DNA of 39,300 nt, taken from positions 1 through 39,300 of the forward strand of contig NZ_JADCBK010000113.1 of NCBI RefSeq assembly GCF_020253525.1, given 5' to 3'. Positions within the stretch are counted from its first letter, which is position 1. Each line of letters starts with the position of its first letter. The position numbers and the translations under genes are program-made. This stretch comes from Aquidulcibacter sp. (GTDB taxonomy: Bacteria; Pseudomonadota; Alphaproteobacteria; Caulobacterales; Aquidulcibacteraceae). Positions 20,845 through 39,300 of the stretch are shown here, one piece after another. The notes under the pieces were generated by a model. It ran no database searches. It was not told the origin of the DNA and saw only the letters and a list, made by a program, of their open reading frames with translations.

Positions 20845-22080
20845 TTAGTAGCCTGCTCGACTGTCGCCGACGTTGATGCGGTTGAATTGGGGTGCTCGCG
20901 GTTGCTTTGCTTTTGCGGCACGCATCACACCTTCGATTGCGTAGCGAATCGCATCAATGGTGTGGTTCTTTTTGTCCGGTAACACTGAAATGATCTCGTT
21001 CGTCATTGGGTCGCGCTTGTACTGATAGGCGCCCAACTCGTCAATTACATGCAAGCAACGCGGGTGAACAATGATGTCGAAGCTCTGCATGAACTCAACA
21101 CCCTGCTTGACCGAGCCTGCCCCTTTTTGGCTTGGGGCAATCTTCGGGAACCCGTGCTTTTGCAAATGGCTGATTGTTTCCGGCCGCGAACTATCTGCCG
21201 TAATGAACCATCTGCGCGACTCGGGAACCGTGTCGAATAAATCGGGCAAGTTGACGATCTCGCATCCAACGACATACGCTTCATGGTCGATGTAGATACG
21301 ATTGCCTTCAACGCTGAGTCGGACCAGCACGCTAGGGTCAACGCTGTAACCCCAATCCGCACCGAATCGGTAAATCGTGCCGGCTGGACGTTCAAATGCT
21401 TCTATCCGCCAGTTCTTGAATACCCTGGCTTCGCTTGCCGACTCGTATTGACCGCGCCAAATATGCTGATACTTGTCGGGATCTCGGACGCGCATGTATT
21501 CCATTTCGGCTTGCAGCACGCTCGGGAACCAAGGGTTGTCGTGATAGTTGACTTCGACAACCACCGAATCGGGCGGCGGTTGATCGCCACGCAAAAACAT
21601 ATCGACCGGATCAGTTTTGTTTAGCGGGTTCCAGCTAAACCAGATTTCCGAGCCGTTTTTACGAATCGTCGGCGTCAAGAGCTCAAGGCTTCTCGCGCTG
21701 AGACTTTGCGCCTCTTCCACCCATGCAATATCAAACCCCTCAAGCGACTTGATCGAGTCGTTTGTGTGGTTCTGCATGCCCTCGAAAATGATGACACCGC
21801 CGTGCTTGGACTCAATGTGCGTATCAAGCACCCGAAAGTACGATTGCACGCCCAACGCTTCGATCTTGTGTTCAAGCAACTTCTTGACCGATTGTTTTAA
21901 GCTGCGCTGGACCTCGCGCACGCATACCGCGTCGGTCTTTTCAATGGCCGAACACTCAATGAGCATTTCAGCGAAAAAGTGTGACTTGCCTGATCCGCGT
22001 CCACCGTGTGCGCCTTTGTAACGCGCTGGCTTTAGTAATGGTGCGAACGCTCGCGGCGTCTCAATCCTTAGTGTGGCCAG
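20845..22080 (-). CDS. Terminase large subunit (TerL)
   Basis: The ATPase-nuclease motor that packages DNA. The Walker A (GGRGSGKS) lies at 22002-21979, upstream of the first ATG (21966), so the gene must begin earlier. Between the in-frame TGA at 22092-22090 and the Walker A there is no ATG, GTG or TTG. CTG at 22080 gives MATLRIETPRAFAPLLKPAR, which looks like a normal TerL N-terminus. With that start (411 aa), IAWVEEA (about 118-124) is the Walker B/catalytic Glu region. The acidic nuclease residues would be D242 (GADWG), D296 (ITADSSRPE) and D376 (HTIDAIRYA). The start overlaps the TerS end by 20 bases. Identity is secure; the start codon is not. Confidence 0.92.
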   Translation of the reverse strand: MATLRIETPRAFAPLLKPARYKGAHGGRGSGKSHFFAEMLIECSAIEKTDAVCVREVQRSLKQSVKKLLEHKIEALGVQSYFRVLDTHIESKHGGVIIFEGMQNHTNDSIKSLEGFDIAWVEEAQSLSARSLELLTPTIRKNGSEIWFSWNPLNKTDPVDMFLRGDQPPPDSVVVEVNYHDNPWFPSVLQAEMEYMRVRDPDKYQHIWRGQYESASEARVFKNWRIEAFERPAGTIYRFGADWGYSVDPSVLVRLSVEGNRIYIDHEAYVVGCEIVNLPDLFDTVPESRRWFITADSSRPETISHLQKHGFPKIAPSQKGAGSVKQGVEFMQSFDIIVHPRCLHVIDELGAYQYKRDPMTNEIISVLPDKKNHTIDAIRYAIEGVMRAAKAKQPRAPQFNRINVGDSRAGY

Positions 22081-22630
22081 GATCGATAATCACGCGCTCA
22101 ATCCGCGTGACCTCCACTTTTAGCGGCGAATCCTCATCACCAGACAGCAATGTTCGATCGCCGTATTTCTTCGGCGCCAGTTTCGAAGCGTACCATTTAC
22201 GGGCGTCAACTCGGAGTCTGGCGCGTGCGATATGGTCGTGGTCAACAACATCACGACCGTCTTTGTCCACCGTGTAATCGCGGGTGCCGTCGTCGGCAAT
22301 CTCTACGATCTCAGCGGCCAGATAATCGGCACAATCTTCTTTCGCGCGCGCGTATTGCTTAGAAAACCCGGCGTCTTCACCGATCCACTTCCAAAGCGTC
22401 GGCTGCGAAATGCCCACTTCAATACACATGGCTCGCGCTGATTTGCCCGTTGCGATGCCCTCGCAGATGGTCTTGAGCATTTCTTGCGTTCTGTATGTTG
22501 GCCGACCAACTTTGCGCTTTTCGGCTTTATCCTTACCTTCCGCCCCTGTTTTTTTCGCCTCTAATCGCCTTGTAGAAGGCGAAGTCTTGGCTTTCCCTAC
22601 CTTTTTGGCGGATTTGGTCGTACTTGCCAT
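22061..22630 (-). CDS. Terminase small subunit (TerS)
   Basis: 189 aa. The N-terminus is Lys-rich. A DNA-binding helix-turn-helix follows at about residues 43-85 (RTQEMLKTICEGIATGKSAR / GISQPTLWKWI), then an oligomerisation helix (KQYARAKEDCADYLAAEIVE), and a C-terminal part with HDHIARARLRVDARKWYASK. This matches small terminases that recognise the packaging site and regulate TerL. The TerL frame begins within its last codons. Confidence 0.9.
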   Translation of the reverse strand: MASTTKSAKKVGKAKTSPSTRRLEAKKTGAEGKDKAEKRKVGRPTYRTQEMLKTICEGIATGKSARAMCIEVGISQPTLWKWIGEDAGFSKQYARAKEDCADYLAAEIVEIADDGTRDYTVDKDGRDVVDHDHIARARLRVDARKWYASKLAPKKYGDRTLLSGDEDSPLKVEVTRIERVIIDPGHTKD

Positions 22631-22634
22631 CGGA

Positions 22635-22736
22635 TTACTTGATTCCCATTCGGTTGTTGAATGTCTTGGTGAATGCCTCGTCTTCTTGACGCGCAGCTTC
22701 CGCGTCCGCGCCTTGTGGGGTTTCGATATCGCTCAT
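22635..22736 (-). CDS. Tiny protein upstream of TerS, 33 aa
   Basis: ATG at 22736 with AGGAAA about 7 bases upstream; 33 residues, acidic then basic (MSDIETPQGADAEAARQEDE ... NNRMGIK), ending TAA four bases before the TerS ATG. The good ribosome site and tight fit between stop and start support translation. Function unknown. Confidence 0.6.
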   Translation of the reverse strand: MSDIETPQGADAEAARQEDEAFTKTFNNRMGIK

Positions 22737-22744
22737 GTGATTTC

Positions 22745-23074
22745 CTATCTGGCGAAAACTAATTTAAGGAGTGCTGCGCCCATCATTGCAATGCCAGCCA
22801 AAATGCCGGTGACTACCCACTTTCGCGTTTCTTTAAGCTGCGGCATAGCCAGTTCAATGGCGTTAACGCGCAAGTCCATTTGGTCAACCGCGTGATCCGT
22901 TTTTGCAATCGAGGTAAACGCGCGTTCAAGTGCTCCACGGGTTTCCAAGTGGCGTTCTTCCAATAAGCTGAAGCGGTTTATGGCTTCGCCTATCTTATTT
23001 AAGGCTTCGGTTTGATTCTCAAGTTGCCGTTCGACGGCAGATAACCGAAAGCTGGTTGTGTCGTCTGGTGGCAT
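22745..23074 (-). CDS. Coiled-coil protein with C-terminal membrane anchor, 109 aa
   Basis: Residues about 10-85 are an amphipathic coiled coil (SAVERQLENQTEALNKIGEA, KTDHAVDQMDLRVNAIE), then one membrane segment (WVVTGILAGIAMMGAALLKL) and a short basic end. It lies directly after the spanins (two bases from their stop). This layout resembles XhlA-type accessory lysis proteins, but it could equally be a membrane-tethered packaging accessory. The role is inferred. Confidence 0.65.
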   Translation of the reverse strand: MPPDDTTSFRLSAVERQLENQTEALNKIGEAINRFSLLEERHLETRGALERAFTSIAKTDHAVDQMDLRVNAIELAMPQLKETRKWVVTGILAGIAMMGAALLKLVFAR

Positions 23075-23076
23075 GG

Positions 23077-23340
23077 TTACTTGATCGCTTGTAGTCGTTG
23101 GTTACACATCTCTAACGCGCCTTCCAGCGCCAGCATTCGATTCCACATGTCCTGATTCGTCGCCCCGTTCGTCAGCCCGGCCGGGGCTTCCACCCGTGTT
23201 TTCAGGGCTTCGTCCACCTTGCACACCTGGGGGACTGGTGGTTGTTTGGTCGAAACGCAGCCGGAGAACGTCAGTAGGGATAGGGCTATCAGCCCAAGTC
23301 TTGACGTCCGGCTGTTTGTTTTTGAGTTCTTCCAGGTCAT
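23077..23340 (-). CDS. Outer-membrane spanin lipoprotein (Rz1-like)
   Basis: 87 aa from the ATG at 23340, embedded in the +1 frame of the Rz-like gene. Basic N-terminus, hydrophobic stretch (LGLIALSLLTFSGC) with a lipobox ending at Cys28, then Lys/Gln/Pro (KQPPVPQV) and a helical tail with Cys (LEMCNQRLQAI). Rz1 proteins are lipoproteins of the outer membrane that pair with the inner-membrane Rz to fuse the membranes at the end of lysis. The nested location is diagnostic. The stop lies two bases before the next gene. Confidence 0.85.
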   Translation of the reverse strand: MTWKNSKTNSRTSRLGLIALSLLTFSGCVSTKQPPVPQVCKVDEALKTRVEAPAGLTNGATNQDMWNRMLALEGALEMCNQRLQAIK

Positions 23341-23605
23341 TCGATACTTTCTCGATCTTGGCGCGGACTGTTCTATCAAAAACGTCTCTTGCCAAAAGTT
23401 TCTTGTTGAGTTCGGCGCGTTTGGCTTCCGCGTCCTCTGCGGCTGTCTTCCAGCCGTCGCGCTCCGTCTCGGCGGTTTGTAGCTTGGCAAGGATCGGCTC
23501 TTGATAATGCGCTTTCAGGGCGTGGTTTAGATACCAACCCAATCCCATCAATCCAGCCAACGCCACTGCGTACAGTGCAAGCCTGATCTGCCATGTCAAA
23601 ATCAT
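23102..23605 (-). CDS. Inner-membrane spanin (Rz-like)
   Basis: 167 aa. One N-terminal membrane segment (RLALYAVALAGLMGLGWYL, residues 8-26), then a long periplasmic coiled coil (AKLQTAETERDGWKTAAEDA to KIEKVSNDLEELKNK) and a Pro/Gly/Ser-rich tail. It starts in the lysozyme stop (ATGA) and contains the Rz1-like gene in another frame. By family it spans the periplasm with its partner and disrupts the outer membrane. Confidence 0.87.
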   Translation of the reverse strand: MILTWQIRLALYAVALAGLMGLGWYLNHALKAHYQEPILAKLQTAETERDGWKTAAEDAEAKRAELNKKLLARDVFDRTVRAKIEKVSNDLEELKNKQPDVKTWADSPIPTDVLRLRFDQTTTSPPGVQGGRSPENTGGSPGRADERGDESGHVESNAGAGRRVRDV

Positions 23606-24030
23606 AGAAGTGCGGCCTCAAGTGCGCGGCGCTTTACCAGCCCAGGCAATACTTTTCCGCCGCCTTTGTTCCAGCGCCGGATTTGATAGCGGGCTTCCTG
23701 CCAATCACCGGCATTCACCGCGCGGCGGAGCGTGCTCGCCTGATAGTTCCCAGCGCCCAAGTTGTAGACGAAACTGGTGATCGCCCCAAGCCGAACATCG
23801 TCGTTTGCCAGCGTCGGACTCGCGGCCAATGCCTGTTTTTGGTGTTTCGACCAATCAACTTCGAACATGGCGTCAGCTTGCTCTTGGGTGATTGGCGGGT
23901 GGTCCAGTGATTTCAGCAGCCTTCCCCAGCCAATCGTCGGGTAGTTCGCCGGGCAGATGTATGGGTGAATCATGGTGCCTACTTTCTTGTGGCACCCTTC
24001 CATCATCTTGGCGATGTCCTTGCCGGTCAT
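23602..24030 (-). CDS. Endolysin, lysozyme of GH24 family
   Basis: 142 aa. Catalytic Glu in MMEGCHK (E11), then ICPANYPTIGWGR (C26, T32), matching the E...C/D...T pattern of GH24 muramidases in which the TIG(W/Y)G strand is conserved. LGAITSFVYNLGAG and YQIRRWNKGGGKVLPGLVKRR are the usual C-terminal helices. It cleaves the glycan of peptidoglycan. There is no signal or anchor segment, so release depends on the holin. Both ends overlap neighbours by ATGA. Confidence 0.9.
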   Translation of the reverse strand: MTGKDIAKMMEGCHKKVGTMIHPYICPANYPTIGWGRLLKSLDHPPITQEQADAMFEVDWSKHQKQALAASPTLANDDVRLGAITSFVYNLGAGNYQASTLRRAVNAGDWQEARYQIRRWNKGGGKVLPGLVKRRALEAALL

Positions 24031-24224
24031 GCGCTGTTCCAGCGGTCGGCAATCAATCGCGCGTTTTCGATGCTGGTGATTACCGCGCCGGGCTTATGCG
24101 GGAACGTCAGACAGTTAAATCCGTTGGCGTTCATCACACCAGCCCAGCCCGGCGTAAATTCCTCAGCACGATACGGCGGTCTTGCAAAATGCGGGTTTGG
24201 CTTTGCATCTTCCGGCGACATCAT
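24027..24224 (-). CDS. Small unknown protein in the lysis cassette, 65 aa
   Basis: Starts in the holin-like stop (ATGATG; either ATG may be used) and overlaps the lysozyme start by ATGA. Soluble, Pro-rich N-terminus (MMSPEDAKPNPHFARPPYRA) and a C-terminal helix (SIENARLIADRWNSA). No family recognised; its place between holin and endolysin suggests a lysis-related or simply coupled gene. Confidence 0.6.
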   Translation of the reverse strand: MMSPEDAKPNPHFARPPYRAEEFTPGWAGVMNANGFNCLTFPHKPGAVITSIENARLIADRWNSA

Positions 24225-24619
24225 ATCTTTTTCAGCGTCCTATCAGCAAAAAAGTAAGCGAGAACACCGGACAATAAGCCCAGGTCGTCAGTGTTGTACG
24301 TCCGAACACCGGTTAGAACCACGGTAACGTAGGTTGCTACAAGCGTGAATGCCACTACTGGCCGCACGAACGGGCTTAGTACCGGCTCGGCTTTGTATTG
24401 CTTGGTGACTGACTTTTCCAGCATGTCGGCAAAAGCTTGGGCGCTGGCCACTTCCATGGCCGTAGCCTCCGGACGGAATGCCTCGATCTTGTGGAATTCG
24501 AGTTGCTTGTCTTGCATCGCAAGCTCATGCCGGCGCTCAAGGTGCCGATCGCCATACTTCAAGAATTCTGGCGTGAGACGGAACAGACCGCCTAGCAGCA
24601 TTCCGATTAGGGCTTCCAT
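24221..24619 (-). CDS. Putative holin (3TM / GTA-holin type), 132 aa
   Basis: Start set at the ATG at 24619 with GGAG 6 bases upstream. The ATG at 24649 lies inside the terminator hairpin and has no site. N-terminal hydrophobic/amphipathic segment (IGMLLGGLFRL), a charged helical middle (residues 22-80), two membrane segments (about 84-104 and 112-125), and an end FFADRTLKKI, similar to the F-F/G-x-R-x-x-K-K end of these holins. Holins make the membrane lesion that releases endolysin. It is the first gene after the late promoter and terminator, as S is in lambda. Confidence 0.72.
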   Translation of the reverse strand: MEALIGMLLGGLFRLTPEFLKYGDRHLERRHELAMQDKQLEFHKIEAFRPEATAMEVASAQAFADMLEKSVTKQYKAEPVLSPFVRPVVAFTLVATYVTVVLTGVRTYNTDDLGLLSGVLAYFFADRTLKKI

Positions 24620-24633
24620 CCGGCGCTCCAATG

Positions 24634-24659
24634 AAAAAACCCCGCTCAATGGCGGGGTT
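24634..24659 (-). terminator. Intrinsic terminator in the late leader (tR'-like)
   Basis: Leftward: AACCCCGC / GCGGGGTT stem (8 bp, arms 24652-24659 and 24638-24645) with a 6-nt loop and TTTTTT. It lies about 85-110 nt downstream of the promoter start at about 24743 and 15 bases before the holin-like ATG, so late genes can be expressed from that promoter only by read-through. Confidence 0.9.
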
Positions 24660-24672
24660 CGGAAAATTTAGG

Positions 24673-24685
24673 GGGCAACTTGCCC
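24673..24685. other. Short inverted repeat in the late leader
   Basis: GGGCAA-C-TTGCCC, six-base arms around one base. Lies about 60-70 nt into the predicted leader RNA, ahead of the terminator. Could be a protein site or a small hairpin; no direct evidence either way. Confidence 0.45.
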
Positions 24686-24749
24686 GTGATCGTCAAAATT
24701 TCAGCATGATTTTCTTATTGTGGCTGCGGCTTTTAACTGCCTGCGCGCG

Positions 24750-24778
24750 AGTATGGGGAAATAAAAAAATGATGTCAA
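24750..24778 (-). promoter_or_regulatory. Sigma70-type late promoter (pR'-like)
   Basis: Leftward: TTGACA (24778-24773), 17-bp spacer, CATACT (24755-24750). The -35 box is consensus and the -10 matches at four of six positions. Predicted start at about 24743. The 24635-24808 stretch around it has no gene. It lies just after the accessory cassette and before the leader terminator and lysis genes, as the lambda pR' promoter does. Confidence 0.75.
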
Positions 24779-24808
24779 GCAGTTTCGTTTCTCCACTCGC
24801 CAATACTG

Positions 24809-25036
24809 TTAAGCAAGAAGCAATTTGTGTTTAGCCATGAAATCCCATTCGTCTGCATTAATTGATGCGGCAGGTATTTTTTTTCTGCTCATGGCATCAG
24901 CTTCATCCCTAATTAAAGATGCTTGGTGATATTGGCCTTTAAGGTCGAGTGCTTCGGCGCGGTTATAAAGCGCCTCCCTTGCGTTGATTATTTGGGCAAT
25001 TTCGATTAGCTCGTTTTCTGTTCTCATTTTCCTCAT
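24809..25036 (-). CDS. Small helical protein, last gene of the accessory cassette, 75 aa
   Basis: Start at the ATG at 25036 (GGAG nine bases upstream); ATG at 25051 is an alternative giving five more residues. Longer upstream coding is unlikely. Charged helical protein (MRKMRTENELIEIAQIINAR, EALDLKGQYHQASLIRDEAD) ending MAKHKLLLA. About 100 bp separate it from the HTH-like gene. Function unknown. Confidence 0.65.
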   Translation of the reverse strand: MRKMRTENELIEIAQIINAREALYNRAEALDLKGQYHQASLIRDEADAMSRKKIPAASINADEWDFMAKHKLLLA

Positions 25037-25139
25037 TTTCTCTATCTCCATTTGACTATTGTTCGTAATTAAGCGCGGACAACGCGGTAGGCATAGTAGC
25101 CGCCCACGCGGCCCGTTGAGGGCTAGAATCGGCCATATT

Positions 25140-25406
25140 TTACGCCGCCAACGACACGACAACGGCTGCGATGGTTTTGGCGCGTTTGGGATCGTGCGGC
25201 ACCCAGACGGATGCAAACCAATCGGCAACCGGTGGCAGCATTACTGCCCGCACATGCGCGGGCAGTGGCTCTTTGTTGTTGAGCCATGCGCCTAGACGCG
25301 AGAGTGTGTAGGTGCGGCCCATTTCCGCGTTGAGCGCGGCCAGAGCTGCGGGACGAGTGCCGTGTAGCGCGATGTAGTTATCAACGAGGAGGTGTTTTGT
25401 GGTCAT
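25140..25406 (-). CDS. Small HTH-like regulator, candidate Aca-type repressor, 88 aa
   Basis: Starts in the stop of the 82-aa gene (ATGA). Residues about 8-55 (YIALHGTRPAALAALNAEMG / YTLSRLGAWLNNKEPLP) resemble a helix-turn-helix of Cro-like phage regulators. The C-terminal half is hydrophobic and Ala/Val-rich. It lies in a short operon whose promoter is overlapped by a perfect inverted repeat, which is where such a regulator would act. The DNA-binding call is pattern-based; autoregulation is inference. Confidence 0.65.
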   Translation of the reverse strand: MTTKHLLVDNYIALHGTRPAALAALNAEMGRTYTLSRLGAWLNNKEPLPAHVRAVMLPPVADWFASVWVPHDPKRAKTIAAVVVSLAA

Positions 25407-25651
25407 GTTGGTTCCCGGGCCGTTAACGTTAGACCGGCTAGGTAGCCGTTACCTAGTGCCGCGCGCGATGGGTCGGTAGATTCTGCCGCCGATAGCCATA
25501 ACTGATGCTCTGCCTCGGTGCCAAAACGCTCGCCGTGCTGGGCGCGGCGTAGGCCGCGCATGTAGCCCGTCCACCAGTCGGATTTAACGGGGTCAGTTTC
25601 GATGCGCCGCAGCGCATCGGCGCGGCGCATCAATGCGGCAAAGTCCGCCAT
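25403..25651 (-). CDS. Small unknown protein of the accessory cassette, 82 aa
   Basis: Begins immediately after the TAA of the 130-aa gene and overlaps the HTH-like gene by ATGA. Arg/Ala-rich and helical with conserved-looking aromatic/Gly segments (KSDWWTGYMRGLRRAQHGER, EHQLWLSAAE, NGYLAGL). I recall similar small proteins beside HTH genes in other proteobacterial phages, but I know of no function. Confidence 0.65.
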   Translation of the reverse strand: MADFAALMRRADALRRIETDPVKSDWWTGYMRGLRRAQHGERFGTEAEHQLWLSAAESTDPSRAALGNGYLAGLTLTAREPT

Positions 25652-26044
25652 TTAGACCCCGTAGCCAAAACAGACCGTCTCCCGGTCGCTCGCTGCCGCT
25701 GCGCGTCGCGCAGCGTATGTGTCCTCAATTTCGGCCGCGATAGCGTCAGAGCGCGACTGGTCTCCCGTCAGGGGTTTTTGCCGCACACTAATAATTGCCC
25801 AGTATTGGTTAGCAGATTTGAAAATCTCTGCACCTCGGAAATTAACCTCTGCGCTCATGGTGCCGTTCGTCGTGTCCCACGCTCCGTACTGCACGGCCTC
25901 GCCGAGCGTCATGGTCTGCAAAAACGGCTTGTTTAGCGAGTATTTCTCGGCGCGACTAACTGTTACCTCGTCGGATTTATCTAGTAGCACTGCGTACTCG
26001 TCATGGCGCAGGCGGTTGCTGATGATTTTGTTTGAGCTAGACAT
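25652..26044 (-). CDS. First gene of the accessory cassette, unknown, 130 aa
   Basis: ATG at 26044 with a strong GGAG 6-7 bases upstream; a longer frame would run through the promoter and is not used. The N-terminal half is basic (NKIISNRLRHDEYAVLLD), the middle mixed alpha/beta with MTLGEAVQYGAWD and YWAIISVRQKPLTG, and the C-terminus Ala-rich and helical. It follows a near-consensus promoter directly, so it should be made strongly. No family known to me. Size and context fit an anti-host or anti-CRISPR protein, but this is only a guess. Confidence 0.7.
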   Translation of the reverse strand: MSSSNKIISNRLRHDEYAVLLDKSDEVTVSRAEKYSLNKPFLQTMTLGEAVQYGAWDTTNGTMSAEVNFRGAEIFKSANQYWAIISVRQKPLTGDQSRSDAIAAEIEDTYAARRAAAASDRETVCFGYGV

Positions 26045-26082
26045 TTTGAATCTCCTACCGGAGCTACCTGCCGGGGTCAGGG

Positions 26083-26099
26083 CATCGCTGTATGCGATG
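26083..26099 (-). other. 5'-end stem-loop of the cassette mRNA
   Basis: CATCGC-ATACA-GCGATG, a 6-bp perfect stem with a 5-nt loop, lying at the predicted start (about 26098) of the cassette mRNA. Stem-loops at a 5' end can protect mRNA; that role is inferred. Confidence 0.5.
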
Positions 26100-26104
26100 T
26101 AGTG

Positions 26105-26133
26105 ACTATACGGGCATCTGTATAGTCTGTCAA
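26105..26133 (-). promoter_or_regulatory. Strong promoter with overlapping operator-like inverted repeat
   Basis: Leftward: TTGACA (26133-26128), 17-bp spacer, TATAGT (26110-26105). The -35 is consensus and the -10 differs by one base. Inside it, ACTATAC (26126-26120) and GTATAGT (26111-26105) form a perfect 7-bp inverted repeat with 8 bases between, covering the -10 and most of the spacer. A bound dimer would block RNA polymerase. The surrounding 26045-26163 stretch has no gene. This is the strongest promoter match I found in the window. Confidence 0.85.
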
Positions 26134-26163
26134 GCACTTTTTGCAAATAAATTAAAAATATTT

Positions 26164-26475
26164 TTATCGGCAAAAAACCCGCAGTAGATCCCGCACGATC
26201 GGTGCCGCCAGATCCTCGCCACACCAGCGTTTAGCTGGTTGGCGGCGATCGGGGGTTAGGCATCGGCCTTCAAATACCACCTGACCGGGTTTGCAGGCTG
26301 GCTTCGGTATCGCACAGATATAGCCGCCGCTTGGCTTGTAGCACGGATCAATCGGCAGCGCGGGTGGATGACACTCGTTCGACTCGATTTCGCAGCGGCT
26401 TGGTTCGGCTGGATTGCTTTGGGCGTGCGCTTGCGTGGCCAGCAAGATCAGACCTGCGGTAAGTAGTGTTTTCAT
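26164..26475 (-). CDS. Secreted Cys-rich small protein, 103 aa
   Basis: Signal peptide MKTLLTAGLILLATQAHAQ (cleavage likely after AHA), then a mature part of about 84 aa with eight cysteines (RCEIES, NECH, DPCY, YICAIP, KPACK, EGRCL, RWCG, FCR) and many prolines. In the periplasm these could form disulfides. AAGGA precedes the ATG. No enzyme motif. It may act on the envelope, perhaps in superinfection exclusion or as a lysogeny trait; this is inference. Confidence 0.75.
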   Translation of the reverse strand: MKTLLTAGLILLATQAHAQSNPAEPSRCEIESNECHPPALPIDPCYKPSGGYICAIPKPACKPGQVVFEGRCLTPDRRQPAKRWCGEDLAAPIVRDLLRVFCR

Positions 26476-26548
26476 GTAAATCCTTCGTTGAGATGTCTAC
26501 GCAATATAGATTTATTGTTCGGGGGTTTGGCGATGGAAAACGATGGTG

Positions 26549-26758
26549 TCACGCTCCGTTTGGTGATCCGAATGCCGGTGGGTCGATTGGTTTGGTAGCC
26601 GCTCTCACTTTTTTCTTGAGCTCTAGGTGTTCAACCAATAAGGCACGGTGAAGTTCTTTCCATTGATCACGCTCGGCTGTGAGGGCTTCAGCTCGGGCAA
26701 GCTGCTCTCGCCAAGCGTCACCATCAACTAATAAACGCTGGCAATCAGCCGCCGACAC
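26549..26758 (-). CDS. Small coiled-coil protein downstream of an in-frame amber codon
   Basis: From a GTG at 26758 the frame gives 69 aa, helical (VSAADCQRLLVDGDAWREQL, ALTAERDQWKELHRALLVEH). An ATG at 26800, overlapping the Q-like stop by ATGA, is in the same frame and reads MKPIPAILFDGQL, then TAG (26761-26759), then this GTG. The whole would be an 83-residue protein with Tyr expected at the TAG. So this may be a gene with a nonsense mutation that re-starts at the GTG, an error in the sequence, or two coupled frames. No Shine-Dalgarno is seen for the GTG. Confidence 0.55.
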   Translation of the reverse strand: MSAADCQRLLVDGDAWREQLARAEALTAERDQWKELHRALLVEHLELKKKVRAATKPIDPPAFGSPNGA

Positions 26759-26796
26759 CTAAAGTTGTCCGTCGAACAGTATTGCTGGAATTGGTT

Positions 26797-27438
26797 TCAT
26801 CGCAACACCCGAGCCCAATGCCTAATCGCCGTCACTTCGCACCGCTGGATGATCTCTAGCGCGTTGTTGATCTGTTCCCGTGCGTGCTTGCGCTCCACAT
26901 GGCCGCGTAGCGCGTCACCGCATTCGTCGTCTGAATACTTGCGTTTTCCCGTGCCGTTACAGTCTAGGCACATTTTCATTGGCTGAACCCCGTTTAGGTC
27001 GGGTATGTCGTGATCGGGGATTTCCTTTTTCCCTTGGCACGTTGGGCACATGTCAATGATGTGCTGATGCAATGCAGCTCTAGCCACAACATGCGCGGCG
27101 ATGTAGTCGGGATGCGTCAGGCACTCGGCGCGTTTTTCGACAATATCAATCCAGTCTGCCGCGTTTATCACATTCATCTGTTTTTTCGCAATCAGCATTT
27201 CGCACGCAATTTCCGCCACGGCGCGGGAAAACAGTCTTGGTTGTAGTCCGTTTTTCACGGCGAGCGTGGTCATTCCAATCGCCACCCAGCGTACGTCCCT
27301 TGCCGCTAGTTGTGCGTTGTCGGTTTGCCGCATGTGGTGTTCTTTTAACTGTGCGGCTCCTACTGCCGCTACACGGTCGCCTGGTGCCCTCTCAGCGGCG
27401 AGGACGATTGCCAGTTGTTCTCTGCGGCTGATTTTCAT
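26797..27438 (-). CDS. Q-like late antitermination protein
   Basis: 213 aa from the ATG at 27438, which overlaps the previous stop (ATGA). Residues 131-160 hold two CxxC pairs (MCPTCQGK and MCLDCNGTGK) with 26 residues between the first Cys of each. As I recall, the lambda Q zinc region (CRDCHGTG...CGRC) has the same spacing. The N-terminal half is helical and Ala-rich (KISRREQLAIVLAAERAPG), and the C-terminus is a charged helix. Q proteins load on RNA polymerase at the late promoter and let it pass the leader terminator. Such a promoter and terminator lie 2-2.8 kb downstream. Assignment is by motif and context. Confidence 0.65.
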   Translation of the reverse strand: MKISRREQLAIVLAAERAPGDRVAAVGAAQLKEHHMRQTDNAQLAARDVRWVAIGMTTLAVKNGLQPRLFSRAVAEIACEMLIAKKQMNVINAADWIDIVEKRAECLTHPDYIAAHVVARAALHQHIIDMCPTCQGKKEIPDHDIPDLNGVQPMKMCLDCNGTGKRKYSDDECGDALRGHVERKHAREQINNALEIIQRCEVTAIRHWARVLR

Positions 27439-27887
27439 TCGATCACTCCTGTGGTCTGGTACTTCATGTAAGGAAGACGGATTAGGGTTTGGAAACGGTT
27501 TGCGGCTTGTTCGTCCCCATCCAATTGAAGACGGGAAACTATTTCGACCACTAGGCATAGCCTGATTTTGGTGTTGAGTTCGTCAGTGCCGCCGGCGTAC
27601 TCGTCGCCCCATCTGTCGGCAAGCCATTCTTGAAACTTCCGATCCTTGCACCATTGCACCGCCAGCATACAAAGCGGTCCGGGCTTATCTTTCTCGGGCT
27701 CGGCTGGAATCTGCGGTTTGTCAAACTGCGGATTCAGCGGCGCTAGCGCCACCGGCATATCTATTTCGGGAAATAGCCGATGGAAGTTGGCCTTGTCCTT
27801 TGGCTCAACGTGTAGCTTTATTTCAAGCGTACCGTCAACCATTTCGCGGACTTGGCGGCGGACAGCGGATATGGCGGCTTGGGTCAT
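27435..27887 (-). CDS. Unknown early protein, 150 aa
   Basis: The N-terminus is a short helix (AISAVRRQVREMVDGT), then a beta strand (LEIKLHVEP), an FPEID loop, and a helical C-terminus containing MLAVQWCKDRKFQEWLAD and IRLCLVVEIVSRLQLD. Coupled to the Q-like gene by ATGA and four bases after the 242-aa gene. Likely a DNA-metabolism or regulatory accessory; no family recognised. Confidence 0.65.
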   Translation of the reverse strand: MTQAAISAVRRQVREMVDGTLEIKLHVEPKDKANFHRLFPEIDMPVALAPLNPQFDKPQIPAEPEKDKPGPLCMLAVQWCKDRKFQEWLADRWGDEYAGGTDELNTKIRLCLVVEIVSRLQLDGDEQAANRFQTLIRLPYMKYQTTGVIE

Positions 27888-27891
27888 AGCT

Positions 27892-28620
27892 TCATCTACG
27901 GCAGAGGATAAAGCCGGAGCCCTTCTGTTCGCAGCGTTGCAGCGCTTCCAGCATCGTCTCGCCTTTATGCCACTCTGCGCTTATACCAATAGCGTCATCC
28001 TTCCATCTACCGCTGCGCTCACCGGCTTTATTATTGAAGTCAATGTTAATAACTCGATTGATCTTGCGTGGGAACGGCAACCACTTGCACATGCGCCAGC
28101 GCCATTCACGTTCTTCGCCGTTAATGGCCGCTATCCTGGTTTGAGTCTCACCAGACGTAAGAGTGTAGGTGTACGGATGCCACTCGCTAACTTCATTTTT
28201 GAGCGCTTCCATGCGTGCGTATCCGGCTTTGGCGATCCACTTGTCCAACAAATCAGCGTGGAAACTGCCGTCCGGTTTCAGTAGCGTGTGACGGACGTGC
28301 GACCATGAGTAAGGCATATCAACACCGATAAACTTGCCTTTCCAGTGAATGTGCCACTGGTCATAGAACGGCCAAGCGAATCCAAAGATGCCATGCCACG
28401 AGCCATCTTCTTGCTTGTATTTGGCAAACCATATCGGCGCGTTGATGTAGAGCGCCGGGAACCCAAACGCAATAATGAGTTGTCCTCGCTCTGTGCCCCC
28501 GTAGTCGTAGATGCTGTAATAAAGCGCAATCTTAAAATTCCACGAGATTGAACCCCAGCGGAATAGCCACACTCGATCTCCGACGAAGTGCGGCTTAAAA
28601 TTCGACAACAACGCGCTCAT
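27892..28620 (-). CDS. Unknown aromatic-rich early protein, 242 aa
   Basis: ATG at 28620 has AAGGAAG upstream; a longer frame would overlap the previous gene. Unusually rich in Trp/Tyr/Phe (WLFRWGSISWNFKIALYYSI, FAWPFYDQWHIHWKGKF), with basic stretches and an HEADER-like basic/acidic mix later. Mostly beta with a helical end (MLEALQRCEQKGSG). No family recognised. Confidence 0.65.
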   Translation of the reverse strand: MSALLSNFKPHFVGDRVWLFRWGSISWNFKIALYYSIYDYGGTERGQLIIAFGFPALYINAPIWFAKYKQEDGSWHGIFGFAWPFYDQWHIHWKGKFIGVDMPYSWSHVRHTLLKPDGSFHADLLDKWIAKAGYARMEALKNEVSEWHPYTYTLTSGETQTRIAAINGEEREWRWRMCKWLPFPRKINRVINIDFNNKAGERSGRWKDDAIGISAEWHKGETMLEALQRCEQKGSGFILCRR

Positions 28621-28630
28621 ACACTTCCTT

Positions 28631-28831
28631 TCAAAATAGTTGATCCTGTTCTTTCGGTTGATAGTGCTTCCCTCTGCATATCGGCCCATTGACGCTGAAC
28701 AAGTCGATGATGATCTTCTGCCCGGCCTTCTTCGACTCCGGCTGGCAGAAAGCCATTGATCGCTTGTCCATCCATTCGCGTAGCTTGGGGTCGGATGATT
28801 GGCGGGTGTTTGTGCACATTGAACAGTTCAC
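28631..28831 (-). CDS. Small zinc-finger-like protein, 66 aa
   Basis: Starts with GTG (28831) inside the stop of the DUF1364 gene (GTGA); ATG at 28819 is an alternative. N-terminal CSMC pair, later Cys at FCQP and ICRG, and many Lys/Gln/Pro. The paired Cys suggest metal binding. It precedes the 242-aa gene by 10 bases. Confidence 0.6.
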   Translation of the reverse strand: MNCSMCTNTRQSSDPKLREWMDKRSMAFCQPESKKAGQKIIIDLFSVNGPICRGKHYQPKEQDQLF

Positions 28832-29304
28832 GCAACTCTTATCTCCCCGCTACGCCAGCATTGGAGCCAATAAGAATCATCCGTCACCAGCGATACGGCG
28901 TCACACTTACCAATGTCGATCAAACCGCGCTCAATCAAGTTCTGCCGCGTGCGCTGCATCGCCCAAGCCATGATCATTTCGCGCGCGTACCGCGATAGGC
29001 TCTTGCCAAAGTCGAGTTCGTGGTGGCATGCAGCGCATCCGTGCGCGTGATATGCGTCGTGCGCTTTCTGCGATTTCGCCTTACCGTGTCGGCTGCTGTT
29101 GGAATGGCAAGATACTGAATGCTCGGGGTCGTGCGGACCGGCTGTGATCAGCAATGTGCAGGGCATTCCCTTGGCCAGGTCGAGCAACTTCTGGTTCCGG
29201 TACATATCCTGTTTCGGGAACATGAGTGCGCCTGTGTTCCGTGGGGCGCGTTTGTACTTCACGCCTTTTTTAATGATCGGTCGGTTTTCAAGCTGTGTGC
29301 TCAT
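28828..29304 (-). CDS. YbcO-like nuclease (DUF1364)
   Basis: 158 aa. Core MPCTLLITAGPHDPEHSVSC, SNSSRHGKAKSQKAHDAYHA, HGCAACHHELDFG and a C-terminal helix with REMIMAWAMQRTRQNLIERG. This is the pattern of YbcO/DUF1364, a small phage protein family with a predicted metal-dependent nuclease fold (conserved His/Cys). Such genes lie in the recombination/replication block of lambdoid phages, as here. Overlaps neighbours by ATGA and GTGA. Activity is known from family prediction, not shown here. Confidence 0.8.
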   Translation of the reverse strand: MSTQLENRPIIKKGVKYKRAPRNTGALMFPKQDMYRNQKLLDLAKGMPCTLLITAGPHDPEHSVSCHSNSSRHGKAKSQKAHDAYHAHGCAACHHELDFGKSLSRYAREMIMAWAMQRTRQNLIERGLIDIGKCDAVSLVTDDSYWLQCWRSGEIRVA

Positions 29305-29423
29305 CGCTTACTTTTCCAAAATCTATGCGCTGCTAATTTCACGGTAGGCCAGAAGATAGCCAAGCCCTGCCGGATCAGCAGCACCAGGCAGATGGACAAA
29401 AGCCAGTTGCGAATGTCGGTCAT
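29301..29423 (-). CDS. Tiny membrane protein, 40 aa
   Basis: ATG at 29423 overlaps the methyltransferase stop (ATGA) and has AGGAG 8 bases upstream; its TGA overlaps the DUF1364 ATG. Sequence MTDIRNWLLSICLVLLIRQG then LAIFWPTVKLAAHRFW: one membrane segment and a basic end. Function unknown; perhaps a membrane accessory. Confidence 0.75.
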   Translation of the reverse strand: MTDIRNWLLSICLVLLIRQGLAIFWPTVKLAAHRFWKSKR

Positions 29424-31201
29424 GCCGCTTGCTCCTGTTCTTGGGAGATTGCTTCGACGGCTTGAATGCGCTCTCCTATGAAACGCATCACGTTCACCGC
29501 CATGCTGTTGCCCAGCGCCTTGTAGCGCGGACCGTCAGCAGCGGGTTTGCCGCGATAAGGAACATCAGTCCAGCCATCCGGAAAGCCTTGAAGTCGCTCA
29601 CATTCGACGGGAGTTAGGCGTCTGACCTGCATGGCTGGGGTCATCACCCCGTCATGCCGTCCGCCCTGTCCGCCGCGTTGCAATGTCGCGCCAATGTTTT
29701 CGTGCGCGGTAAGCTCTTCGCTCCAGCCGATTGCAGGCGCTAACACCAACGGCGCTGCATCACCCTTGCCCGTTTCGCCGGATTGCGCCTTGAGTGGCGG
29801 CACGACTTCTGACGGCGCGCCTCGGTCGTTTCGGGCGAAGCGGGATTCAAACGCCACCGCCGGCATCACCCCTGCATTCGCATGGCTACCGCTATGACCG
29901 CCCGCGCGGAGTGTTGGCGATAGGTCTAGCTGTGCGTCGGCTCCGTGGTCTTTGGCGCTGAATGCAAGAACCGCATGCTGGTCTGTCTTCGTCAGCGTAT
30001 ACATCGCGCCGCTATCGTCCGCGCCGGTACCATTGCCGCCGTTCTCGGGCTTGCGTCCGATCACGTTGCCGGGGATCGCCACCGGCACAAAATGTCCCGC
30101 TGCCGCGCCTTCCGGCCGACCGCCTGCACCGCCTGAAAAGCTATCCTTGCAGATCGCGCCTGCAACCGGCACCAACGGCGTACCTCTCCCCGTGCCGTCT
30201 TCGGATGCGTCGAACCCTTCGGCTTTGAGCGAGTGAGCAACATCGAAGCCGCCCCCGGTTTGTACCGGAATCAGATGTCCCGGCTTCGTGTCGGAGTCCG
30301 CTCCCTTCGCGTCGCGCTCCTGTAGGCACCCCGCCGTTTCCGGCAACAGGGAATATCCGCCCTGAGTAGGCGTCTTGGCCGTTAAGCCCCCCCCCCACAT
30401 GTGAGCGCCGTCTGTTAGTGCGCCTACGGTTGCGGGGACAGCGATGACTGGATCTTGTACACGACTCTCTCCAGTTCGCTCGACGCCGCGACCACTTGCT
30501 GTAAGGCTTGGCGCAGTGCAGGCGGCAATTCTTTGCCCCGCTTCTCTACGCGGCGGAGTATGCCAGCACAGGCTTTCGCGCTCAATAAATAGCGGCGGTC
30601 TACTTGTCCAGTTTCCAGAATCTCGGACAATGAAGACACGCCTTCTGCGCTGTGGTACGGCTCGGGGATGTGATTCCACTCGGACGATTTGTGCATCCAG
30701 AGTTGCCCATTCGACCAACCCTTTCGGGCCGACAGCAAAACCGGCGTTTTCCCAGCCGTCTCCCGGTACGTCAAATTCGCACCCAGCCATTTCTCCAACC
30801 ACGGCAGCAAAGTCTCTGCCCTTGTTGCTTGAGAATAGACCAGGGACATTTTCGACGCCGACGAATCGGGCGCCGGACCATTCTGCAATCTCCATTCCGG
30901 TAAAGAAAAGTCCAGACCTAGTTGCGCTTCCATCCTCATTCCTCAATCCAGCACGTTTGCCGGCAACTGATAAATCCTGACAAGGAAATCCGCCGATCAC
31001 TACATCGATGTGACCGAGCTTGCGGATTTGTTCTTTTGTGATCTTGGTGACGTCGCCCAAGTTCGGCACAGTCGGGTAGTGCTGCGCCAGAACCGCACTC
31101 GGGAACGACTCAATCTCTGCGACGGCTGCACACTCCCAACCGAGCGGCTTCCACGCGACGCTCGCAGCCTCAATCCCACTGAAAAGGCTGATGTACCTCA
31201 C
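29420..31201 (-). CDS. DNA cytosine-C5 methyltransferase with expanded repeat region
   Basis: 593 aa from the GTG at 31201 (GGGAGG just upstream; overlaps the prior stop as GTGA); the longer ATG frame would overlap that gene fully. Motif I FSGIEAASVAW (about 7-17), motif IV GFPCQDLS (catalytic Cys74), motif VI VENVPG (116-121), motif VIII QRRRRVFIV (184-192) and motif X GNSMAVNV (about 564) are all present. The target-recognition region (about 228-505) holds degenerate repeats, with pieces such as SLTASGRGVE, SLKAEGFDASEDGTGRGTPL and TLRAGGHSGSHANAG. It methylates cytosine to protect phage DNA or alter specificity. G10 at 30387-30396 lies in this region. Confidence 0.9.
   Translation of the reverse strand: MRYISLFSGIEAASVAWKPLGWECAAVAEIESFPSAVLAQHYPTVPNLGDVTKITKEQIRKLGHIDVVIGGFPCQDLSVAGKRAGLRNEDGSATRSGLFFTGMEIAEWSGARFVGVENVPGLFSSNKGRDFAAVVGEMAGCEFDVPGDGWENAGFAVGPKGLVEWATLDAQIVRVESHPRAVPQRRRRVFIVRDSGNWTSRPPLFIERESLCWHTPPRREAGQRIAACTAPSLTASGRGVERTGESRVQDPVIAVPATVGALTDGAHMWGGGLTAKTPTQGGYSLLPETAGCLQERDAKGADSDTKPGHLIPVQTGGGFDVAHSLKAEGFDASEDGTGRGTPLVPVAGAICKDSFSGGAGGRPEGAAAGHFVPVAIPGNVIGRKPENGGNGTGADDSGAMYTLTKTDQHAVLAFSAKDHGADAQLDLSPTLRAGGHSGSHANAGVMPAVAFESRFARNDRGAPSEVVPPLKAQSGETGKGDAAPLVLAPAIGWSEELTAHENIGATLQRGGQGGRHDGVMTPAMQVRRLTPVECERLQGFPDGWTDVPYRGKPAADGPRYKALGNSMAVNVMRFIGERIQAVEAISQEQEQAA
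30387..30396 (-). repeat. G10 tract inside the methyltransferase gene
   Basis: Ten consecutive C on the plus strand (G10 on the coding strand), encoding W-G-G-G (TGG GGG GGG GGC). A change of one or two bases would shift the frame and cut the protein in the target-recognition region. It is the longest homopolymer tract I noticed in the window. Confidence 0.85.
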
Positions 31202-33761: not shown

Positions 33762-34183
33762 CAGGCAGCTTTCTTTATCTTCACGGCGCTAAAAATCGTG
33801 TTGCCTTTTGGCCGAAGGCGATTGATCAGCCTGATTTCGTCCATAGCCCATTGCCCGACGCGGCTAGACGGCTTGACCTTTACAAACACGCGCGTTGATT
33901 CAGTAGCCACGCCCCAAGACGATCGAAAGTTATTCGCGTACCCATATTTGAATTTGTGCTCATGCAGGCGTTTTCTGACGTTGTTAGAACTTCCAACGTA
34001 CACAAGCTCGTCATCGAAATAAACGACATAAACTCCCGCACAAGTCGGAAGAAGTGGGCTATCCATTGTCAGCAGTTCAAACAAATGCCACCTATTCGGT
34101 CGTATTTCCATAACGCGGCGATGCTGCGTTTCAACCGAGCGAGGGCTGAAACTTGTCGTGTAAATCAAACCTTTCTCAACCAT
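33761..34183 (-). CDS. GIY-YIG domain protein
   Basis: 140 aa from the ATG at 34183 (AAAGG upstream). GVYVVYFDDELVYVGSS gives the GIY...YVG motif, followed by NNVRKRLHEHK (catalytic Arg region), then the helix with MDEIRLINRLRPKGN (the Glu). This is the GIY-YIG nuclease core with little else, so it may be a small endonuclease or homing-type enzyme. It is separated from the DUF1064 gene by a long structured gap and may have been inserted. Confidence 0.8.
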   Translation of the reverse strand: MVEKGLIYTTSFSPRSVETQHRRVMEIRPNRWHLFELLTMDSPLLPTCAGVYVVYFDDELVYVGSSNNVRKRLHEHKFKYGYANNFRSSWGVATESTRVFVKVKPSSRVGQWAMDEIRLINRLRPKGNTIFSAVKIKKAA

Positions 34184-37025: not shown

Positions 37026-37213
37026 ATAACGCCTCAAACCTAGCAGACCTATCACAACGCCGCGAAAAGAACCGCATTAACAATGAAGCAGCGGTAGCCA
37101 AGATCGAGGGCTATCAAGCTGGATATGACAAGGCGAAACAGATTTACACCGGACTCGTATGGGCGCTCAGTCTGTACGGGATTGTGATGACAACAGCTTA
37201 TTTTGCGAGGTAG
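37022..37213 (+). CDS. Small protein with C-terminal membrane segment, 63 aa
   Basis: ATG at 37022 in the stop of the 24-aa gene. Charged helical N-terminus (LADLSQRREKNRINNEAAVA), then a hydrophobic end (YTGLVWALSLYGIVMTTAYF). Probably a membrane protein; no family recognised. Confidence 0.65.
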   Translation: MNNASNLADLSQRREKNRINNEAAVAKIEGYQAGYDKAKQIYTGLVWALSLYGIVMTTAYFAR

Positions 37214-37215
37214 CA

Positions 37216-37818
37216 ATGAGTATTCAAATTAAAGACAGAATCAACGGCAGGGTGTTGTTTGAGGCTGATGCGAACAGTATTAGGGTTGCGTTGGAGTTGG
37301 CAGTTAAAGGCAATGCCGATTTGCGCGTGGCCGATTTGCGCGGGGCCGATTTGCGCGTGGCCTATTTGCGCGGGGCCGATTTGTGCGGTGCCGATTTGCG
37401 CGGGGTCAAACGCGAGGCTTTAAAGGAGGCCGATATTAGTCAGAAGCTAATCATCGAATCCGCAACGCGATTAACGCACGGCTGCCACAGCATTGCCGAA
37501 GCAAGCGGCTGGTGGACAGACCTTAAAACTGGCGAATCGCTTGTTGGCAAGAAGAACGTGCCAGAACTGTTGATGTTGGTTGTGTCCGAACTTGGCGAAG
37601 CAATGGAGGGCCACCGCAAAAACCTGATGGACGACAAGTTACCGCATCGCCGGATGGTTGAGGTTGAACTAGCTGATGCCGTCATTCGCATATTCGACAT
37701 GGCCGGTGGCATGGGCTACGACGTTGCAGGCGCGATTGCCGAGAAGTTGGAATACAACGCCAGGCGCGCAGACCACAAGCCGGAGAACCGCACCGCCGAT
37801 GGCGGGAAGAAATATTGA
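37216..37818 (+). CDS. Pentapeptide-repeat / MazG-like fusion protein, 200 aa
   Basis: ATG at 37216 (GAGGT upstream). Residues about 32-62 are pentapeptide repeats (ADLRV-ADLRG-ADLRV-AYLRG-ADLCG-ADLRG) forming a short right-handed beta-helix. Residues about 75-190 match an all-alpha NTP pyrophosphohydrolase: SELGEAMEGHRK (ExxE) and VEVELADAVIRIFD (ExxD) are the metal-binding motifs. MazG-type enzymes hydrolyse NTPs or dNTPs or lower alarmones. The fusion is unusual. The start codon of the next gene overlaps its stop (TGATG). Confidence 0.78.
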   Translation: MSIQIKDRINGRVLFEADANSIRVALELAVKGNADLRVADLRGADLRVAYLRGADLCGADLRGVKREALKEADISQKLIIESATRLTHGCHSIAEASGWWTDLKTGESLVGKKNVPELLMLVVSELGEAMEGHRKNLMDDKLPHRRMVEVELADAVIRIFDMAGGMGYDVAGAIAEKLEYNARRADHKPENRTADGGKKY

Positions 37819-38707: not shown

Positions 38708-39300
38708 TTCAAAACCACCAATTGCCTTTAAGGGCTTTGATCACAAGTGGCAGTGTCGCGAATATCAATACGCCGTTGGTGAGTCGTATGAGCACAAGGG
38801 CGCGGTTAAAGCGTGCGGCAGCGGGTTTCATGCTTGTGAGGTTCCGCTAGAGGTCTTTGGTTATTACCCGCCCGTAGGTGATGGCGGTCTGCTGCACTCA
38901 TTCGCGCTGGTCGAGTGTTCGGGCGAGATTCACCGCGACGGCAGCGATAGCAAGATCGCATCGGCAAAGATTCACATCAAAGCCGAACTATCAATTCCGC
39001 AGCTAGTCGGCCACATGGTTTCGTGGGTGATATCGCAGATTGACGCGACGATTCCACAAGCAGCGACCAACACTGGCGACCGAAGCGCAGCGACCAACAC
39101 TGGCGACCGAAGCGCAGCGACCAACACTGGCAACTACAGCGCAGCGACCAACACTGGCTACCAAAGCGCAGCGACCAACACTGGCAACTACAGCGCAGCG
39201 ACCAACACTGGCGACCAAAGCGCAGCGACCAACACTGGCAACTACAGCGCAGCGACCAACACTGGCAACTACAGCGCAGCGACCAACACTGGCAACTACA
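38700..39300 (+). CDS. DUF7666-like protein with tandem repeats, 3' end off the window
   Basis: ATG at 38700. N-terminal domain (AFKGFDHKWQCREYQYAVGE, GSGFHACEVPLEVFGYYPP, HSFALVECSGEIHRDGSDSK) matches DUF7666. From residue 121 on, nine-residue repeats SAATNTGxx follow (eight full units and one partial in the window), likely a beta-solenoid. Only the last two residues of each unit vary (NY, DR, YQ, DQ). Function unknown; incomplete here. Confidence 0.8.
   Translation, partial: MSDSKPPIAFKGFDHKWQCREYQYAVGESYEHKGAVKACGSGFHACEVPLEVFGYYPPVGDGGLLHSFALVECSGEIHRDGSDSKIASAKIHIKAELSIPQLVGHMVSWVISQIDATIPQAATNTGDRSAATNTGDRSAATNTGNYSAATNTGYQSAATNTGNYSAATNTGDQSAATNTGNYSAATNTGNYSAATNTGNY
39060..39300 (+). 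repeat. 27-bp tandem repeats in the DUF7666-like gene
   Basis: Units of 27 bp (gcagcgaccaacactggc + six variable bases + agc), eight full copies (39060-39275) and a partial one to the edge. Only two codons per unit differ: GACCGA, AACTAC, TACCAA or GACCAA. The copy number can change without breaking the frame. Confidence 0.92.

Follow-up and report, generated by a model that had tools for sequence, protein, structure and literature searches.

Layout of the locus

The window analyzed herein, i.e., the whole stretch of 39,300 bases, is one complete contig (C17) of an Aquidulcibacter sp. genome of 3.49 Mb that is listed as 99.96% complete. It carries phage genes, among them those for a terminase large subunit (TIGR01547), an S24-type repressor, and a DnaB-type helicase domain, and its contig displays no terminal direct repeat. 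On the minus strand, a compact cassette (Table 1) is situated between a gene for a Q-like antiterminator on its upstream side (26797-27558; phrog_127, E 1.4e-5) and ORFs on its downstream side that read like a lysis module, to which family searches assigned no named function. The cassette consists of a near-consensus promoter overlain by a perfect inverted repeat, a short leader, and genes for proteins of 130, 82, and 88 amino acids (aa). Apart from the window itself, the searches turned up two close cassettes: that of L013, a Rhodocyclaceae contig from a metagenome-assembled genome, and that of L087, an IMG/VR viral contig.

Transitions between the three genes are tight, with a TAAATG junction linking the 130- and 82-aa genes and an ATGA overlap linking the 82- and 88-aa genes. 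An earlier note on this DNA had described four such tight small genes; this description holds for these three and fails for the 75-aa ORF, which starts 103 nt past the 88-aa stop codon. The latter ORF has a G+C content of 0.417 (vs. 0.55-0.63 for the three cassette genes) and has no relative among 32 pattern matches in the viral-contig collection; a phmmer search over the fetched loci likewise revealed none except in copies of the window. Given this separation, the different base composition, and the lack of relatives in the fetched loci, we count the unit as three genes, with the 75-aa ORF probably not belonging to it.

Table 1. Features of the cassette and its downstream flank in the window
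Feature	Position	Strand	Remarks
Core promoter TTGACA-17-TATAGT	26105..26133	-	11/12 consensus matches
Candidate operator, perfect dyad GACTATAC-8-GTATAGTC in core promoter	26104..26127	.	arms 26104-26111 / 26120-26127
Leader with common block CCTGACCCCGGCAGGT(A/T)GC and ribosome site GGAG	26045..26103	-	promoter and leader 88% identical to L013 over 125 bp
First gene (130 aa), variable cargo with a putative anti-defence role	25652..26044	-	158-aa gene in its place in L013, 85-aa gene in L087
82-aa conserved middle gene	25403..25651	-	identity 83% L013, 70% L009, 70% L087
88-aa last gene, candidate Aca-like autorepressor, HTH suggested by sequence pattern only	25140..25406	-	identity 86% L013, 28% L087
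Leftover 3' end of aca2-like gene, reading ADSSPQRAAWAATMP	25088..25134	-	94% over 47 bp to L013 Aca2_YdiL 3' end
75-aa ORF	24809..25036	-	behind the leftover aca2-like 3' end, downstream of the 88-aa gene

Several other features mark the surrounding phage region. At 27892-28689 (-), 1.8 kb upstream of the cassette, is a gene of the Acb3 (CBASS inhibitor) family (PF25187, E 1.7e-27), so that a named anti-defence family is represented in this region. Relatives of this gene occur in 44 phage records, of which 40 are from Vibrio phages. Our literature search found no paper treating Acb3 together with CBASS. Downstream of the cassette, a TTGACA-17-CATACT promoter (24778-24750) is followed by a terminator-like site (24660-24637), both on the minus strand, an arrangement that we take to resemble the pR'-tR' late control unit of phage lambda. 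Near the end of the contig are two repetitive coding stretches, at 39003-39218 and 37159-37818 (VASVGRCA repeats; pentapeptide-like ADLRGADL repeats).

At its listed completeness, the host genome yielded no Cas1, whereas the genome holding L013 has one. Beside the Cas1 gene of the latter genome is an array (L035:2342-2931) with a period of 42-43 bp, a repeat of ~25 nt, and spacers of ~18 nt, which presumably resembles the minimal arrays of Cas1-only type V systems.

Promoter, dyad, and leader

The near-consensus promoter proposed in the earlier note is indeed present, being the better of two matches in the interval 22000-30000. As shuffled sequences yield 4.1 ± 1.9 matches, the promoter match alone is not significant. 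An inverted repeat lies within the core of this promoter, as had also been claimed, with each arm of the perfect dyad one base longer (8 bp) than first reported. When the spacer was shuffled with the hexamers held fixed, arms of at least 8 bp arose in 16 of 20000 trials and arms of at least 7 bp in 180 of 20000; random 32-mers of the window gave arms of at least 8 bp in 84 of 20000. The pattern by itself is not diagnostic, as it was matched in 17 unrelated viral contigs (10 of the 17 with one identical promoter) in which no homologue of the 82-aa protein, the 88-aa protein, or Aca2 was detected. A perfect palindrome, CACTATAC-8-GTATAGTG, was observed over a TTGACA promoter in an unrelated viral contig (L018:1159-1186).

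Upstream, a block reading TTTGCAAAAAGTGCTTGACA extends up to the -35 hexamer of the window promoter; it recurs at two L013 promoters and at one L087 promoter. In the leader, the ribosome site reported ahead of the 130-aa gene was verified (...TAGGAGATTCAAAATG). Searched with a relaxed pattern, the common leader block had a single match among viral contigs, namely L087. When up to two mismatches were allowed, the 398 genomes of the order yielded matches in the host genome and in one other, G112 (L135); the match in the latter may be due to chance, as a reversed control of the block was likewise matched once in the same 398 genomes (G385).

The encoded proteins

No homologue of the 130-aa protein was found among phages, viral contigs, genome contigs, or 60 genomes of the family. 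Across the 398 genomes of the order, five weak matches besides its own were recovered (E 3.7e-5 to 0.009); the best of these (L004) falls in a 337-aa frame whose sequence suggests a subunit of an MCE-type transporter, and another (L005) runs through a stop codon, and both were taken as chance. The protein thus has no convincing homologue in the collections searched, and it has no Pfam or NCBIfam match. Pfam, NCBIfam, and PADLOC scans assigned none of the first genes of the cassettes to a known Acr or anti-defence family, and the single-sequence fold prediction for the 130-aa protein gave an unusable model.

The 82-aa middle gene is conserved. Comparison of the window and L013 copies yields a dN of 0.096 and a dS of 0.23. 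A further homologue on L009 is preceded by a fourth unrelated first gene of 163 aa, and no 88-aa homologue occurs within that 5,066-base stretch.

For the 88-aa last gene, the corresponding values for the window and L013 are a dN of 0.087 and a dS of 0.675 (dN/dS of about 0.13), so purifying selection on the encoded protein is clear. The protein was recognized by none of the Pfam, PHROGs, and NCBIfam models; across nine family members, the best Pfam helix-turn-helix (HTH) match was HTH_3 at E 0.17, which is below threshold. A structure model built from a two-sequence alignment is all-helical (pLDDT 64), with no Foldseek match below E 2.4. No profile match to PF08965 (the Aca2/YdiL family) was obtained; profile comparison with Aca2 aligned 23 columns over the presumed recognition-helix region at a probability of 17%. 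The nine-member alignment reveals a conserved core, with a YTLSRLGxW run in the L087 homologue.

Direct searches for 88-aa homologues yielded none in phages, plasmids, viral contigs, or 59 other genomes of the family. Among 507 pattern matches in the species-genome collection, one relative was identified, that of L013, at 86% identity. The 88-aa profile detected only the L013 genome itself among 28 genomes of its family and only the host genome of the window among 249 genomes of the order. Weak matches within the order at E 0.003-0.006 (L010-L012) were dropped, each having an internal stop codon. Weak profile matches were also observed in the same phage and genome, at 33883-34068 (-) of the window (E 0.002) and at G000:C55:7522-7752 (L153; E 2.8e-4).

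Exchange of the first gene between related cassettes

DNA of L013 and the window is 88% identical over 125 bp of promoter and leader, with the similarity ending at the start codon of gene 1. It resumes 19 bp inside the 82-aa gene and continues at 86.6% over 486 bp, almost reaching the end of the 88-aa gene. Gene 1 of L013, in between, encodes 158 aa and has no detectable similarity to the 130-aa gene. The L013 dyad retains CTATAC-8-GTATAG unchanged with one outer pair broken, and its regulator is near-identical. PRTRC A, B, and C and ParB genes on this contig scored above the cut-off, PRTRC genes being typical of plasmids and integrative elements.

L087 contains the only complete cassette among 93 stretches with the upstream/-35 block in viral contigs, the other stretches being devoid of cassette homologues. 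The first gene of this cassette encodes an unrelated 85-aa protein; the second and third encode homologues of the 82-aa protein (83 aa, 70% identity) and of the 88-aa protein (92 aa, 28% overall). The cassette keeps both the common upstream/-35 block and the leader block. The dyad here, ACTATCCC-6-GGGATAGT, starts one base past TTGACA and has the same 22-bp span and place as in the window, from which it differs in having C:G in place of A:T at one symmetric position and in containing an additional C:G pair. An inverted repeat ahead of homologous genes, for which the earlier note suggested a search, is found at the same place in L013 and, in symmetrically altered form, in L087.

The first genes were compared directly: the four genes located immediately upstream of 82-aa homologues (130, 158, 85, and 163 aa) share no mutual similarity. 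Three cassettes with the same promoter and regulator thus have three first genes without detectable similarity. Across these cassettes, the putative operator and the 88-aa homologue differ together, with the 82-aa homologue staying at 70%. Each cassette is carried by a mobile element, to judge from the terminase gene in the window, the PRTRC genes of L013, and the IMG/VR origin of L087.

aca2-like neighbours and cassette borders

The next promoter downstream on L013 heads a second cassette (L013:8290-9291). Its dyad, GTTCGC-5-GCGAAC, is a different one, although the common TTTGCAAAAAGTGCTTGACA block is present, and the genes behind it encode a 144-aa protein without assigned function and a 149-aa Aca2_YdiL protein (PF08965, E 5.8e-21). 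The two adjacent L013 promoters thus share the block up to -35 and differ in operator, each with its own regulator. The 144-aa gene ahead of Aca2_YdiL constitutes an independent anti-CRISPR candidate.

In L087, the cassette is directly downstream of an Aca2_YdiL gene (E 4.8e-21) whose product is 75% identical to that of L013. The leftover aca2-like 3' end behind the window cassette has counterparts ahead of the cassette in L013 and behind it in L087, with an 84% copy on another contig of the L013 genome. These aca2-like ends are probable recombination borders of the cassettes. Adjacency to aca2 is suggestive and not proof, given that acr genes are upstream of only 3% (35/1223) of Aca2-like proteins (PMC9410906).

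Distant plasmid relatives of the 88-aa protein

With the 92-aa homologue from L087 as the query, 17 plasmid records were matched at E values up to 1; the strongest were four Halomonas records (7e-6 to 1e-3), with the other thirteen individually weak (0.04-0.3). The nine-member profile matches all 10 of the genomes or records given to it, nine of which supplied its members, the tenth being Halomonas pHAL1. In the 7 of 17 plasmid loci examined, the 88-aa relatives come after small unknown ORFs, and no 82-aa homologue occurs in the stretches examined. For PA16-9, the gene annotated at this place is on the opposite strand and an unannotated frame was used; for KO116 and pHAL1, no annotated gene underlies the match. 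In two Halomonas plasmids, the relatives adjoin umuDC.

The conjugative plasmids pVIM-20710 and pVH1 (L139:2792-3764 and L142:2785-3758) have a common small operon with a distant 88-aa relative. These loci are mutually related, their first genes being 46% identical. Their promoter, TTGATA-17-TATATT, is fully covered by a 25-bp palindrome, ATATAATAC-7-GTATTATAT, in which the perfect 9-bp arms are unchanged and the loop varies. Among the other five plasmid relatives, four lack a qualifying promoter and L138 has weak ones, with a palindrome of 6-bp arms ~950 bp upstream.

A model for the cassette and its alternatives

The sequences themselves establish the architecture of the cassette, the exchange of cargo against a constant promoter and regulator, an operator that differs along with the regulator, the aca2 neighbourhood, and purifying selection on the 88-aa gene. 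We consider it probable that the cassette is of the acr-aca type, regulating its own expression and exchanging its cargo, which most likely acts against defence. As unrepressed DNA enters a cell, the strong sigma-70 promoter would fire in an early burst and give rise to the 82-aa protein along with the cargo, in this case the 130-aa protein. Translation of the 88-aa protein would come last; as a dimer, this protein would then bind the 22-24-bp dyad between -35 and -10, thereby shutting the promoter. Cargo would be swapped by recombination at common borders, i.e., the upstream/-35 block plus leader on the 5' side and the tail of the aca2-like gene on the 3' side. We infer that the cargo most likely serves as an inhibitor of some host defence. 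Since Cas1 was not found in the host genome, a general anti-defence function is likelier than an anti-CRISPR one; nothing points to anti-CRISPR activity in the present host, and a specifically anti-CRISPR reading is weakened.

A bolder form of this proposal, which we advance tentatively and rate at somewhat less than an even chance, holds that the 88-aa family represents new phage and plasmid autorepressors, overlooked by Aca mining based on HTH models, that define border-delimited, exchangeable counter-defence cassettes. In these, the upstream/-35 block and the leader would stay constant, the operator would co-evolve with the regulator, a constant 82-aa helper would be retained, cargo would swap freely at the aca2-derived ends, and the first genes (130, 158, and 85 aa) would encode new inhibitors of defence.

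The same repression logic could serve a moron or accessory cassette whose cargo acts outside defence, e.g., in lysogenic conversion, superinfection exclusion, or host takeover. The failure of every first gene to match an Acr or anti-defence family in the Pfam, NCBIfam, and PADLOC scans would fit such a cargo, as would the Cas1-negative host genome and the lack of known acr partners for most aca2-like genes. Set against this are the Acb3-family gene nearby and the presence of the cassette beside Aca2_YdiL on both plasmid-type and viral contigs, which points to a benefit common to phages and plasmids, such as surviving entry; we thus regard a cargo outside defence as unlikely, albeit deserving of some weight. 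Which protein represses is a separate matter. Both the 82- and 88-aa genes accompany the promoter in each of the three cassettes, so that the 82-aa protein, alone or jointly with the 88-aa protein, might be the repressor. This is improbable, however, as the 82-aa homologues of the window and L087 are 70% identical despite the change in operator, whereas the 88-aa homologue changes too (28%), and the plasmid relatives of the 88-aa protein stand without an 82-aa homologue in the stretches examined.

Autoregulated toxin-antitoxin operons, e.g., MqsRA and HigBA, also have a dyad over the promoter and a regulator within the operon, and a small operon with a putative HTH protein encoded last could be read in this way, with the first gene encoding a toxin and the 88-aa (or 82-aa) protein an autorepressing antitoxin. 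Co-inheritance of toxin and antitoxin is not observed, however: an unrelated gene replaces the first gene while the 82/88-aa pair is still 83-86% identical, an exchange disallowed for a matched antitoxin, and no first gene has a family match. A toxin-antitoxin operon is thus very improbable. We give still less credence, indeed hardly any, to a pR'-like phage late promoter in which the repeat would be a Q-binding site. The Q-like antiterminator gene upstream and the lysis-like genes (from ORF reading) downstream are what such a promoter would be expected to have as neighbours. Nevertheless, the same promoter and dyad are found on the PRTRC plasmid-type contig L013, where phmmer detected no relative of the Q-like protein of the window in 16264 bases, and the separate downstream promoter and terminator (24778-24637) better fit a late role. 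An acr-aca-type cargo cassette remains our preferred explanation.

If correct, this explanation would provide the 88-aa family as a new bait for counter-defence genes on phages and plasmids, including those missed by pipelines that depend on Pfam HTH models. The three cassettes, with near-identical promoter backbones and two operator forms with matching regulators, may amount to a natural experiment in repressor-operator co-evolution, and their common borders make cassette exchange directly testable.

Comparison with known systems

In the literature searched, we found no paper that appeared to describe this cassette, which does not exclude the existence of one. Toxin-antitoxin operons such as MqsRA and HigBA differ from it, as the cassette exchanges its first gene against a near-constant regulator. 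Anti-defence islands, portrayed as clusters of small unknown genes and HTH regulators on plasmids and phages (PMC7648647; cf. PMC11541004), are unlike it in that the cassette is border-delimited and no known anti-restriction gene was identified within it.

Aca regulators are small (55-140 aa among those listed), encoded in acr operons, and provided with an operator in the core promoter (PMC9410906, PMC9765179), and an exchangeable first gene has been described for acr-aca operons (PMC9765179). Aca1 and Aca3-Aca12 are set apart from the 88-aa family by Pfam models, the best HTH match of the family being that at E 0.17. All known Acas match Pfam HTH-clan models, as stated for AcaFinder; as the 88-aa family reaches no such match, it would probably be missed by an HTH-clan filter. 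The closest comparison is with the acr-aca2 operon (Aca2/YdiL, PF08965, DUF1870), from which the cassette is distinguished by (i) a regulator without a PF08965 match, (ii) a conserved middle gene, making three genes, and (iii) another operator. The cassette, a putative member of the acr-aca group, would by analogy work like an acr-aca system, as it shares with acr-aca2 a dyad in the core promoter, a small and variable first gene, and a candidate regulator encoded last. Moreover, the two are physical neighbours on L013 and L087, and the window retains a 3'-end remnant that matches aca2.
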